This document shows, in pieces, positions 15,101-21,100 of a stretch of DNA of 64,000 nt (positions are counted from its first letter, which is position 1; every line of letters starts with the position of its first letter). The position numbers and the translations under genes were made by a program. Source of the stretch: Oryzias latipes (lineage: Eukaryota > Chordata > Actinopteri > Beloniformes > Adrianichthyidae); NCBI RefSeq assembly GCF_002234675.1, contig NC_019872.2:12273950-12337949 (forward strand). Reading direction: 5' to 3'. The notes beneath the pieces are model-generated. The model saw only the letters and a list, made by a program, of their open reading frames with translations. It did no database searches and was not told the DNA's origin.

Positions 15101-18100
15101 TGAAAGCAAACATCTACAACTAAGAAGCACTTTGATTGAGCTGGTAAATCTCTTGAATAAAAATCTGGTGCAGCCAAATGCTTATCTTATAATTTGGTCT
15201 ATAGATCCTAATTTCTTTGTCTCTGTAAAGATAAATCGAGATGCATTCAGCAAAATCTTTAGGAAAGAGCTCCTAAAATCTGTCCTAATTGACGAGAACA
15301 CAGTTTTAAAGGTCTGTTTAGTATAGAAACACAGATTTACCGTGACTCTAAACATCACTTGGAGCTTTTTACTTTTTTTTTTTACAGAGCAAAGCTCCTT
15401 ACTTCTAAAATTACAAGGGTGTATCATCACAACCAACCTGTCAGAAAAAGAGGCAGATCACCAAAAGTACTCAACCGGTAATGGAAGATATTTATCACAG
15501 ACGGCTGTGAGCGCCATGGCAACCATTTGAATGTTTGCGTGAAGGACACAAACACGAAGGTAAGGAGTGAAAGGCATCAAGGTGAGCAAAATGACCAACC
15601 AGAAAACAGAAGTAGGAAAGAAGAAGACAACAAACGACAGGAAGCTGAACATAAAACACAAATGGCGGAACTTACAAAAACAATGTGAGATTAGTGGAGG
15701 CTTTTTCCTAATGTAACACTGTTTAAACCTTGAATCACACAAACCATGTGTTTCTTTAGGCTTGTTTTAGAAGGGGTTCACTTTTGGATCTGAATCTATC
15801 ACATGTTCTCCAAAAAATAAGGAAATCTCTGGAAATAAATGGAATTTTCACTAGTAACAATAAGAACTTGAGTAATAAGTGAGATTTACACAGTAGATGA
15901 AAACATAGCAGTTTGGTGATGTATAAACCCCCCACCCCAAAGCATGGTTTCCTAAAAATGAGCTTCACTTACTTCACTGAAAGTGCCTCGACCAATCACC
16001 TTCAGGATGTGGAAGTCCTCTCTTTTAAGGCTCATCCTCCTAACCCCCCTCACAAGAGGTTCAGCTGTGAGTGAGCGAGAGCAGAGAGACACATGGAGCT
16101 ATAATACAGGAGGTACATGTCAAGAAAGTCAGAGAAAAGAAAAGAGGTTGAAGCCATTGACTAGATATGAGAGCTGGACTGAGTGAGAGTGATGTCAGCC
16201 GTAGAAAACGGCTTATTTCCAGCTCCAATAAAATGAATTCATTTTTCCCCCCTAAATTCATGTTGGAGCCAGACGATATCAGTTAGCAGTAATTGGGCCA
16301 AATCAGTCCGAGTCAGCGTTTCTATGGTAACCAGTCTCAATAATGAGCTTGTTGGAAGTCCACACCCCTGTCACTTGATAGTGGGCTCAGGAAAAGCTGT
16401 CAATCAAACGTTTCAAATGTTTGTCATGTGGACCCCTGGGTGCCACATTCTTGTTTTGAGGCATCTGATTGGTCTGTTTTTAACTTGAATAACTTAAAAA
16501 TATCCTGGAAAAGAATTAGGATTAGCAAGAATCTGTCAGAGAAGGTAGTAGAGCAAACATGACACATGCAATAACTGAGAAACAGCTGTCTATTTCTCTG
16601 AAGTCTGTGGGATTTTGGCTTCTTTGAGCTTCCTTTGTGGAACACTCAGTCCACTTCTCCTATACAGTCAATGATTGATGCTTTAATTAGATTAAAGGTG
16701 GAAGTCTGTAAAGACACCTAAATAGAATCGTACCTTTACATACTTTTTCACCTCTCTCATGTCTTGATTTTTCATTTTATTCTATTACACACAGATGAAG
16801 TCCCTTCACCCTCCACAGCTGTCATAATTATTTTCTGAGGGGGGCATTTATTGTAGAGAATTACTTAATTAAAACCATTAATGTACCTTTGTGGAGAAAA
16901 GCTACTTAATAACAATGAGAAGTAAAAAATAATATGTCTCAGACAGAACCATAGATACTTTCCCATTATGGACCTTTTCTTTTCCGGTCCTACAATTCTG
17001 CTTTATTTAAAGAGTAAAACATGGGATTCCAGTGGGTACCATGGATGCTAACAAAGGTAGGCGCAGTTACTGAAACACTTAAGTACATTTACACATGGAG
17101 AAAAAGCTCTTGAGTCCAACATAAACACCTGCACACTGGCTGTTTAAAATAGGCTCTGTCATTAAGTTTGGTTTGATATGCAATGAGGGATGGTGAGGTG
17201 GGAACTTTAAACGGGATTTACTGAGAGAAGGGAACTTACAGCTTTAGACAAAATAGGCTAAATTAAAAGTTTGGGTAACACTTTATATTAAGATTCTTAA
17301 CAAGCTTTGTTAACACATTAACAAGCATTATAAATGAATTTATAGGGTGTTAGTAAGACATTTATTAGTACAATAAGTCTTATAAGGTTTATTAAATTAC
17401 TTAGTTAACACATTTACAAGCATTATTATTAGGATGTTTTCAAGATGCTAATGATGCACTTACTGATATTATAGGTGCCTAACAAATGTGTCAGTGTTAA
17501 TAAGCTTAATAAGATTTATTAACAACCTTTGTTAACAAATTAAGAAGTATTATTATTGTTTGGGGTTCTAGTAAGACATTTATTAGCATTATAGACGCCT
17601 GACACAAGCCTAAGTGTTCATAAGCTTAATAAGTTTTTTTAACTAACGTAACAAATTATTAGGCTTTATTAATGTGTCAGATGCTAGTAAGATATTTATT
17701 AGCATTATAAATGTCTTGCAAATACCTGAAAGTGTTAATAAGATTTATTAACATCTAAAGTCAGACCATTGTCTTCTAAATCCATATTACTAAACTGCTT
17801 ATAAGCTTTACAAATGTATTAATTAACTTTGTTAATAGTTTATTAATTGTTTTGCAGCACCTCAACTAAAGTGAGGACGGTTTTTACCACAAAAAACCAC
17901 AAAGCATAAAGATTGTAAAAAGAACTTTATGACATTTAAACAGACTAAACATACACAAATCTTTCTGTGAAAGATATATAATAATTTAATTCAGACAAAT
18001 ATTTTTTTTTAAAAAACATATAGACTGGTGTTGGATGACTCTAGCATCATAGCTATAAGGATAAAGTATTAGCATCTATCCTGAGTGAAACATTCATTGC

Positions 18101-21100
18101 AAATCCCATCACCAGCAGACAATTCTCTGCATTTAATGCCAACTGCATTCAACCACTGTTCAAAGTCCACAAGAAAGTTGCACAAGCCAGTAATTTTTGA
18201 AGACCGAAGACATTAATAGATAGATAGATAGATAGATAGATAGATAGATAGATAGATAGATAGATAGATAGATAGATAGATAGATAGATAGATAGATAGA
18301 TAGATAGATAGATAGATAGATAGATAGATAGATAGATAGATAGATAGATAGATAGATAGATAGATAGATAGATAGATAGATAGATAGATAGATAGATAGA
18401 TAGATAGATAGATAGATAGATAGATAGATAGATAGACAGACAACTTTATTTATCCATTTGGGAGGTTCCCGCATGGAAATTGACATCTCCATCGCATACA
18501 GCACTGATTGACATACATATAGGAAAAAGGAAAAAGCAGCACAGTGACTAGAAAAATGAGGAAGATTAGAACAGTGAAAAACAATTTAAATATCTGCAAA
18601 CAGTATATGCAAAAAAAAAAAAAAAAAAAAACCTACAGGAGCCATGCTAAAGCTAACACGCTAAAGACCGACCCAATGAGTTATATCACTAGAGGAGACA
18701 CGCCCGCTTTAGAAGCCTGCCCTACGGTGGCGGAGCGCAACGCCATCTTGGTGAAGTCGACGACGCCCACATGACATTGATTTCTATTGATTTTAGTGGT
18801 GTCTAAGTAGCTTTTATAAACTGTATATATTTTTAGATTTAAATATATTTATACATATAAATAAATATATTATATTTTATGTATATAAAATATACATAGA
18901 TATATATATACATCATTTGTTGTTGTTAAAGAAGAGAAACAGTCAGCCTTAAAAGCTCAAATTTCAATGAAATTGTTGCAGGACTTCTTACGAATAAAAC
19001 AATTATTAGAAAGAATTTTTAAAATTAATTTCTAAACATTTAGAAGTTTTAGACCTCTTTGACATGTAATTTAAATTATTTAGAAAAACCCAACAATAAG
19101 TCAATAATAATAATAATAATAATAATAATAATAATAATAAATCATTAGTAAGTCAATACAAACAATAAATAACAATAAATAAAGAATAAGTCAGTAAATA
19201 AGAATAAAAATAATGATATTATTATTATTTTTATGATTATTATTTTAATACTAATAATACTACTAATAATACTACTACTACTACTACTACTACTACTACT
19301 ACTACTACTACTACTACTACTACTACTACTACTACTACTACTACTAATAATAATAATAATAATAATAATAATAATAATAATCAAAAGAAGTCCAAAAGTG
19401 AACATCAGATTTACCCGAAAAAAAACCAGTCTGGCCTCTCATCAAAATCTGTTTCCACAAATGTTTTGAACAGCCAGACTGTGTTGCTATTTGGTAACCA
19501 CAGTGATCCATCTGGGTTAACTCTTTTGATAGAAAAGGCCCACTTTTTCCGACTTTTAGACATCATGCAGCATGTTGATAATAGCCCTGCAGCATCATGC
19601 ATGTCAACATGTGTTCTTTTAATAAAGCCCCTGCAGCCTTAAAAGAAAAAAAATTAAAATACTTACCTGTGAAATGATACACCTACCTCCTTATTGGACT
19701 CATTTATCTGATTTTGGCAGTTGAAACCCGCACAATGAACTGGCATTTTGCAAAAAATGTGTTCAAATGCATGCACTGCAGCAGTAACTTGACCTCACCA
19801 AGATGGCGGTGCTCCCCTCCCATGAGGAACCACGTGATGTCTCCTCTAGTGATATAACTCATTGGACAGACCGGTACAGAATCAAAGATGGGCGGGGCTT
19901 TTTTCGTCACCTGTGTTGCTGATGAGTTTGATTGACAGATTCATTAGCCAATGGTGACATTGGTTAACCTGCCCATCTTTGATTCCTTTCAGAATCAGAG
20001 ATGGGCAGGTTAGCGTGTTAGCTTTAGCATGGCTCCTGTAGGTTTAATGTCTTCGGTCTTCAAAAATTACTGGATTGTGCAACTTTTTAGTGGACTTTAA
20101 AGCAAGGCAACAGTGGTTGAATGCAGTTGGCATTGAATGCAGAGAATTGTCTCCTGGTGATGGGATTTGCAATGAATGTTTCACTCAGGATAGATGCTAA
20201 TACTTTATCCTTATTATTAGCTATGATGCTAGTCATCCAACACCAGTATATATGTTTTTAATTTTTTTTGTCTGAATTAAATTATTATATATCTTTTACA
20301 GAACAATTTGTGTATGTTTAGTCTGTTTAAATGTTATAAAGTTCTTTTTACAATCTTTATGCTTTGAGGTTTTTTGTGGTAAAAACCGTCCTCACTTTAG
20401 TTGAGGTGCTGCAAAACAATTAATAAACTATTAACAAAGTTAATTAATACATTTGTAAAGCTTATAAGCAGTTTAGTAATATGGATTTAGAAGACAATGG
20501 TCTGACTTTAGATGTTAATAAATCTTATTAACACTTTCAGGTATTTGCAAGACATCTATAATGCTAATAAATATCTTACTAGAACCCCAAACAATAATAA
20601 TACTTCTTAATTTGTTAACAAAGGTTGTTAATAAATCTTATTAAGCTTATTAACACTGACAAATTTGTTAGGCACCTATAATATCAGTAAATGCATCAAT
20701 ACCATTTTTAAAACATCCTAATAATAATGCTTGTAAATGTATTAACTAAGTAATTTAATAAACCTTATAAGACTTATTGTACTAATAAATGTCTTAATAA
20801 CACCCTATTATTCATTTATAATGCTTGTTAATGTGTTAACAGAGCTTGTTAAGGAATCTTAATATGAAGTGTTACCAAAGTTTGAGCTTTTCAGAATAAT
20901 TGTCAGTTTAAACCACATAGGGAGAAGACCAAAATGTGTTATAAGCTTATTTATTTTCAAAGACCCACTCCACTGAAAATTGTGTTTTTAATATGTTCTA
21001 GCAATTTTCCCATGACGGACAACATATATTAAAGAATTTAGGATAAAAATTCCATTTCTGTGTTTTTCTTATTCAAATTGTGGATCAAGAGCAGGAGCAG

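Follow-up and report, generated by a model that had tools for sequence, protein, structure and literature searches.

A transposon at positions 17274-20876 of a 64,000-nucleotide stretch of the medaka (Oryzias latipes) genome (C14:12273950-12337949, called the window throughout) is very probably a member of a repeated, non-autonomous family of DNA transposons whose normal form is a near-perfect palindrome of about 2.2 kb. The initial annotation of the window had described it as a single unusual 3.6-kb palindrome. It is instead one copy of the repeated family, with two further elements nested inside. The bounds given in that annotation are correct, and its view of a long-armed DNA transposon that encodes no transposase itself is supported; the size was misjudged through the nesting.

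The outer element is flanked on both sides by an exact 8-bp target-site duplication (TSD), AAAGTTTG, and has the termini GGTAACAC at 17274 and GTGTTACC at 20876, all as first annotated. The apparent length of 3.6 kb is misleading, because two later insertions are included in it. When these are subtracted, the coordinates give an outer element of about 1.99 kb, having arms of 978 bp (left) and 867 bp (right) separated by a loop of about 145 bp. Its parts are as follows.

17266-17273, no strand: left TSD AAAGTTTG, an exact match to 20877-20884
17274-18216, plus strand: outer part of the left arm, with subterminal units followed by a unique part holding a THAP-like frame, delimited by alignment to the right arm
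17290-17742, plus strand: diverged subterminal repeats in the left arm, with unit lengths of about 94, 127, 116 and 116 bp, individually weak against shuffled sequence
18631-18665, plus strand: inner part of the left arm (a 36-bp stretch, 18629-18664, is identical in the right arm)
19873-20009, plus strand: loop or spacer of the palindrome, an asymmetric sequence common to the copies, with GC-box and CCAAT-like stretches; shortened in the window copy
20010-20876, minus strand: right arm, delimited by alignment to the left arm
20048-20197, plus strand: THAP-like frame of the right arm, with a mirror frame at 18072-18212 on the minus strand
20877-20884, no strand: right TSD AAAGTTTG, an exact match to the left TSD

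The palindrome had been said to stand or fall with arms aligning above about 75% identity. The arms are identical in 825 of 853 ungapped columns (97%), and the best local score between them is 1393, compared to 34 or less in 50 single-base shuffles. In the uncorrected element the inverted arms are found by BLAST as a 742-bp piece at 86% and a 360-bp piece at 93%. About four units of about 115 bp had been annotated in each arm. Diverged units of 94-127 bp are indeed present, but their number is unequal, about four on the left and three on the right, the left arm carrying one extra 116-bp unit. The identity among the left-arm units (0.72-0.88) overlaps that of a gapped shuffle control (mean 0.74, maximum 0.87, n=300), and most of the units are therefore weakly supported one by one. 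Tandem Repeats Finder (TRF) reports only a 116-bp array at 17493-17709, in 1.8 copies. The terminal arms are long and internally repetitive, an architecture resembling that of Galileo or Foldback, by which no phylogenetic relationship is implied. By description, the outer family is also like the Foldback and Angel-type hairpin elements, which have long inverted arms and a capacity to form hairpins.

The family was searched for in the window's own genome (734,051,031 bases in 25 contigs), using the first 327 bp of the outer element as the query. There were 699 first-look candidates, 40 of which were scored, and the copy count is thus a lower bound. At least 40 near-full-length matches were found at 98-100% identity, the window copy included. 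By position these correspond to 36 elements, four having been detected at both ends. Examination of 34 of the 35 other places gave 28 two-ended elements. One of these, L032, with four TSD mismatches and an element nested inside it, is not included in the TSD count. Exact 8-bp duplications flank 17 of the remaining 27 copies, and five more have duplications with one mismatch. Copies with ragged ends and no duplications would have spoken against the annotated element; the other copies have the same end points. The end sequence, GGTAACACTTTATATT, is nearly constant (copy L015a is changed at one of the first eight bases), and the target sites are rich in A/T, with rough palindromic symmetry around NAAATTTN.

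Most copies with full arms are 2.0-2.2 kb long; their inverted arms measure about 0.99 kb and reach 989 bp at 99.1% identity. The exceptions in size are L038 (2.46 kb), L039 (2.40 kb) and nine shorter copies (0.64-1.7 kb), apparently derived by internal deletion. Of 18 other copies examined, 17 contain the same asymmetric loop, in some of them in shortened form; the exception is L019. As the copies share one loop, the palindrome most likely formed once and then spread as such. A literature search with longer forms of the end sequence found no papers, the titles and abstracts listed in other searches contained nothing on the family, and a viral sequence collection contained no matches to the ends of the outer family or to those of Izanagi, the element nested in the window copy.

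Some observations weigh against this description of the family. The flanks of the other five of the 27 copies differ at 3-7 positions, those of L032, outside the 27, at four, and seven of the 34 places examined have no second end within the stretch examined. In addition, the search with the start of the element, which had been proposed as a way to an autonomous partner, did find a repeated family, but no transposase-bearing partner among the copies examined, so that mobilization is presumed to occur in trans. In the interiors of the seven one-ended places and of L032, shared sequence is limited to short stretches of at most 216 bp.

An 8.6-kb copy, L034, with an exact TSD AAACCTTA, was considered as the autonomous partner and rejected, as it is a canonical palindrome holding a nested element of 6.37 kb. 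The nested element (2048-8421 in element coordinates) has a TTAA duplication and 547-bp terminal inverted repeats (TIRs) at 96.7% identity. Four of the six frames of at least 80 amino acids in L034, as well as the palindrome frame, have no Pfam match. The inner part of the TTAA-type element is about 80% identical to the palindrome loop plus the THAP-like stretch. A nested element of about 3 kb is also found in L032 (L032:5876-8851); its ends are AGACCTTTTTC and GAAAAAGGTCT, and it contains a THAP frame. The 81-amino-acid THAP frame of this type, with one TAG, accounts for about 44 of 150 scored THAP matches. The element is thus apparently a further repeat that carries a THAP frame.

The two arms of a copy are more alike than arms drawn from different copies. 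Among 15 copies whose orientation was set by the loop, a copy's own arms differ by 0.0281, compared to 0.0392 for arms taken from different copies, and none of 10,000 reassignments of the right arms gave a value as low. Minor variants are present in both arms of a copy 116 times (mean 42 and maximum 80 in 300 shuffles), while 407 are confined to one arm. Of the variants private to one copy, 26 are shared by its two arms and 179 are confined to a single arm. Within the arms, no position is specific to the left or to the right side; such columns are limited to the final few next to the loop. The arms share variants beyond chance, suggesting that within a copy they have probably been rewritten from each other.

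This conclusion is tempered by the finding that the closest sequence to an arm is its partner in the same copy in just 10 of 30 cases, and that the arms of L022 and L047 differ from each other by more than the cross-copy average, implying that conversion is partial or intermittent. The homogeneity might also be, in part, an effect of the assembly. Palindromes are difficult to assemble, and their collapse could mimic sharing between arms. As a full explanation this is quite improbable, because 407 one-arm variants persist beside the 116 shared ones and because collapse would have erased the 116-bp unit difference that the window copy retains. Rewriting of the arms from each other is the preferred interpretation. 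In Galileo, the TIRs of one copy are 98-100% identical, and repair from another arm has been invoked (PMC3573991). It is conceivable, though on balance doubtful, that the palindromic family keeps its arms alike by copying between them at transposition or repair, the folded hairpin plausibly serving as its own template. The palindrome would then be a self-correcting form of transposon, with an effect comparable to arm-to-arm conversion in the palindromes of sex chromosomes. A repeated vertebrate transposon with a 2-kb palindrome as its normal form and co-evolving arms would offer a natural system in which to address arm homogeneity.

These observations are best explained by the following history. 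The normal form consists of two arms of about 0.99 kb, each having the end GGTAACACTTTATATT, repeat units and the THAP-like stretch, around an asymmetric loop of about 200 bp. A transposase made elsewhere would bind the ends, perhaps repeatedly by way of the repeat units, and excise the element. Insertion at A/T-rich, roughly palindromic NAAATTTN sites would then create the 8-bp duplications. Having arisen once, the palindrome would have spread as a palindrome, with occasional copying between its arms by gene conversion or hairpin-templated repair. The window copy entered intron 1 of a dmpk-type gene, after which a fragment resembling a long interspersed nuclear element (LINE) hit the left arm and Izanagi hit the loop.

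The LINE-like insertion is about 0.41 kb long and has no counterpart in the right arm. Izanagi is a medaka-specific, non-autonomous transposon of the P superfamily that contains THAP exons and was described from the dmrt1bY promoter (PMC2820524). For the THAP searches a profile of nine human sequences, six of them entered by hand, was used to score 1,666 frames of the window. The nested features are as follows.

18217-18630, minus strand: (ATAG)56, reported by TRF, and a 3' end with an A-run, absent from the right arm; both the LINE assignment and the strand are our assumption
18666-18673, no strand: left copy of the Izanagi TSD, GACCGACC, part of the palindrome loop
18674-19864, minus strand: Izanagi copy of 1,191 bp, a nested and non-autonomous member of the P superfamily, recognized by its TIRs, by primer sites and by alignment to L062
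18674-18700, plus strand: left Izanagi TIR, exact match to the published 27-bp TIR
19414-19638, minus strand: decayed later THAP exon piece of Izanagi, second of the 1,666 frames (E 0.021)
19666-19794, minus strand: decayed THAP exon 1 piece of Izanagi, best of the 1,666 frames (E 4.1e-4)
19838-19864, minus strand: right Izanagi TIR, exact match to the published 27-bp TIR
19865-19872, no strand: right copy of the Izanagi TSD, GACAGACC

The 27-bp TIR, CAATGAGTTATATCACTAGAGGAGACA, matches without mismatches at both ends, while the next-best places in the window have 9-11 mismatches. It lies within a 28-bp inverted pair (18673-18700 and 19838-19865). The corresponding part of the inner pairing in the initial annotation is therefore foreign to the outer element, the arms of which stand. 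Three of the four published primers match inside the nested copy (26/26, 22/25 and 19/23); the window offers no convincing site for the fourth, at best one with 7 mismatches of 21. The 8-bp duplications GACCGACC and GACAGACC agree at seven positions. The two decayed THAP pieces are the top two window frames with the nine-sequence profile; with a three-sequence profile their E values are 0.29 (19666-19794) and 12 (19414-19638), and Pfam does not report either in the window. Together with the transposase-bearing element and the footprint-like scars described below, this evidence places the nested element firmly in the P superfamily. It resembles Izanagi as described in PMC2820524 in its identical 27-bp TIRs, THAP pieces, three primer sites and 8-bp TSD, and differs in that the TSD copies match at 7/8, in its length of 1,191 bp rather than the 1,316 bp found at the dmrt1bY promoter, and in its location inside another transposon.

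A whole-genome search with PF21787 found two P-type transposase loci, L061 and L062, and 10-kb stretches around them were examined. L062:2125-7511 (contig C21) is a 5,387-bp element having Izanagi ends, with one mismatch each, and an exact TSD, GTTTGACA. Matches to PF21787 (1.3e-28), PF21788 (4.9e-11) and PF21789 (3.3e-6) lie in two separate open frames, and a THAP match of 1.4e-18 was found among 517 frames with our own profile. The window copy of Izanagi aligns to this element in three blocks at 75-84% identity, showing it to be a relative and not the direct parent. By its sequence the L062 element is a transposase-bearing relative of Izanagi. Izanagi, co-opted at the medaka sex-determining gene dmrt1bY, is thus linked, within one genome, to a P-type element that carries transposase domains. 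Like Pdre2/zebrafish THAP9, the L062 relative combines an 8-bp TSD with a P-type transposase; Pdre2 differs in its 13-bp TIR, CATACCTGTCAAC, and its ends are unlike those of the outer family (PMC10983969). At L061 there is an Izanagi-like right end (7230-7256, 3 mismatches of 27), with no left end within the stretch, and the region 3938-4513 aligns to the window Izanagi copy in blocks at 80-84%.

Joined Izanagi ends were sought with a sequence pattern, which matched at 11 places and, as a reversed control, at none. All 11 of these footprint-like scars (L049-L058 and one in the loop of L025) have 8-bp duplications, seven exact and four with one mismatch. The duplication at L051 holds only if the scar is extended to a second downstream end (41 bp in place of the 28 bp that matched), and L049, L052 and L053 have identical flanks and probably represent one event. 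The retained ends (n=22) are 11-17 nucleotides (nt) long, one scar having 17 at both ends; the lower bound is fixed by the pattern, and, because the Izanagi TIR was the reference, ends of diverged relatives would read short. The upper limit equals the 17-nt overhangs left by the Drosophila P transposase (PMC10983969). Neither the transposase-bearing relative nor 17-nt scars were met in the part of the Izanagi literature covered, to which this statement is confined. The scar in the loop of palindrome copy L025 lies eight bases from the window Izanagi site. Izanagi has thus entered the palindrome loop twice, with different TSDs (GACCGACC and ACGCTAAC), and the palindrome centre is possibly a hot spot for it.

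Could the outer family itself belong to the P superfamily, as does Drosophila Galileo, with long repetitive TIRs bound by a THAP-type transposase? The 8-bp TSDs would agree with this, but are common to several superfamilies. The long arms with tandem units are as in Galileo (PMC3573991, PMC3688188). The THAP-like frame of the arm resembles the second half of a THAP domain and, at E 0.085, is third among the window frames with the nine-sequence profile, behind the two Izanagi pieces. Its best match in another copy has E 0.0038 (1,180 frames in 23 elements, which are not independent). Against this, with the three-sequence profile the frame is second at E 0.36, close to unrelated frames at 0.38 and 0.49, and Pfam reports nothing for it. 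It also points outward, toward the ends of the element, which fits poorly with a normal P-type gene. Moreover, a module about 80% identical to most copies adjoins the TIR of the TTAA-type element in L034, suggesting that the arm module may have another origin, as a promoter and exon common to different elements.

The two PF21787 loci argue in the same direction. Within 10 kb of them the best match to the outer ends has 6-7 mismatches of 20, the palindrome aligns to neither locus, and both carry Izanagi-type ends, one at both sides and the other on the right only. The footprint pattern for the outer ends gave two exact matches, neither with an 8-bp duplication, in contrast to the 11 of 11 for Izanagi: one has a 6-bp flanking repeat, and the other has flanks agreeing at 6/8 and retains more than 17 nt. 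Finally, the outer ends start with GG, whereas those of Izanagi and Pdre2 start with CA. No P-type locus with the outer ends was found within the 10-kb stretches examined; a partner may have been lost or be very divergent. Membership in the P superfamily therefore appears unlikely, and the outer family is provisionally not filed there.

As described in PMC3573991, PMC3688188 and PMC4168063, Galileo shares with the medaka family arms that can reach 1.2 kb or more and that have internal repeats in some subfamilies, the occurrence of non-autonomous copies with two TIRs, close identity between the arms within a copy, an AT-rich palindromic target and inner sequence recruited into the arms. It differs in its TSDs, which are 7 bp (rarely 8 bp) and of the GTANTAC type rather than 8 bp and of the NAAATTTN type, and in having transposase-bearing copies, whereas the medaka family has GG ends and no known transposase. 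Unlike Galileo, the medaka family is palindromic in its standard form.

Two other placements among superfamilies with 8-bp duplications were considered. Assignment to hAT, the first guess of the initial annotation, accounts for the duplication length, and hAT elements are common in fish. However, position 2 of the outer-family TSD is A in 13 of 18 copies and position 7 is T in 15 of 18, the reverse of the hAT pattern nTnnnnAn, and the ends, GGTAAC, are unlike the usual hAT ends. The duplication pattern argues against this assignment, which, with no search made for a hAT transposase, has a low probability. Zisupton elements (KDZ) have been described from fish. They generate 8-bp TSDs (PMC12730594), and their transposase could be the missing partner; as there is nothing positive in favour of Zisupton, a superfamily of this kind is a rather doubtful home for the outer family.

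The initial annotation had placed the element in intron 1 of dmpk, and this is upheld. A first-exon frame at 30107-30370 (minus strand) has DMPK 2vd5 as its best PDB match (E 6.7e-7), and the motif of the next exon of a dmpk-type gene is found at 15979-16020 (minus strand), locating the outer element in the first coding intron of such a gene. A further kinase frame matches MRCK (1.3e-23) slightly better than DMPK (1.5e-22). The very long RNA hairpin that had been envisaged is also predicted by computed folding. The 3,603-nt element in the dmpk sense has a computed minimum free energy of -1778 kcal/mol, compared to -829 to -953 kcal/mol for four window stretches of the same length, despite their higher G+C content (0.36-0.39 versus 0.30). 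In the computed fold the arms form 825 pairs with each other, and the longest perfect helix measures 186. A short hairpin in the loop (19963-20014) matches several microRNA families below threshold and was taken as generic; a microRNA was rejected, as the Rfam matches are sub-threshold only (best 33.9 bits, cut-off 99). Elsewhere in the window, a 343-amino-acid open frame at 45569-46600 (minus strand) may encode a Tc1-type transposase.

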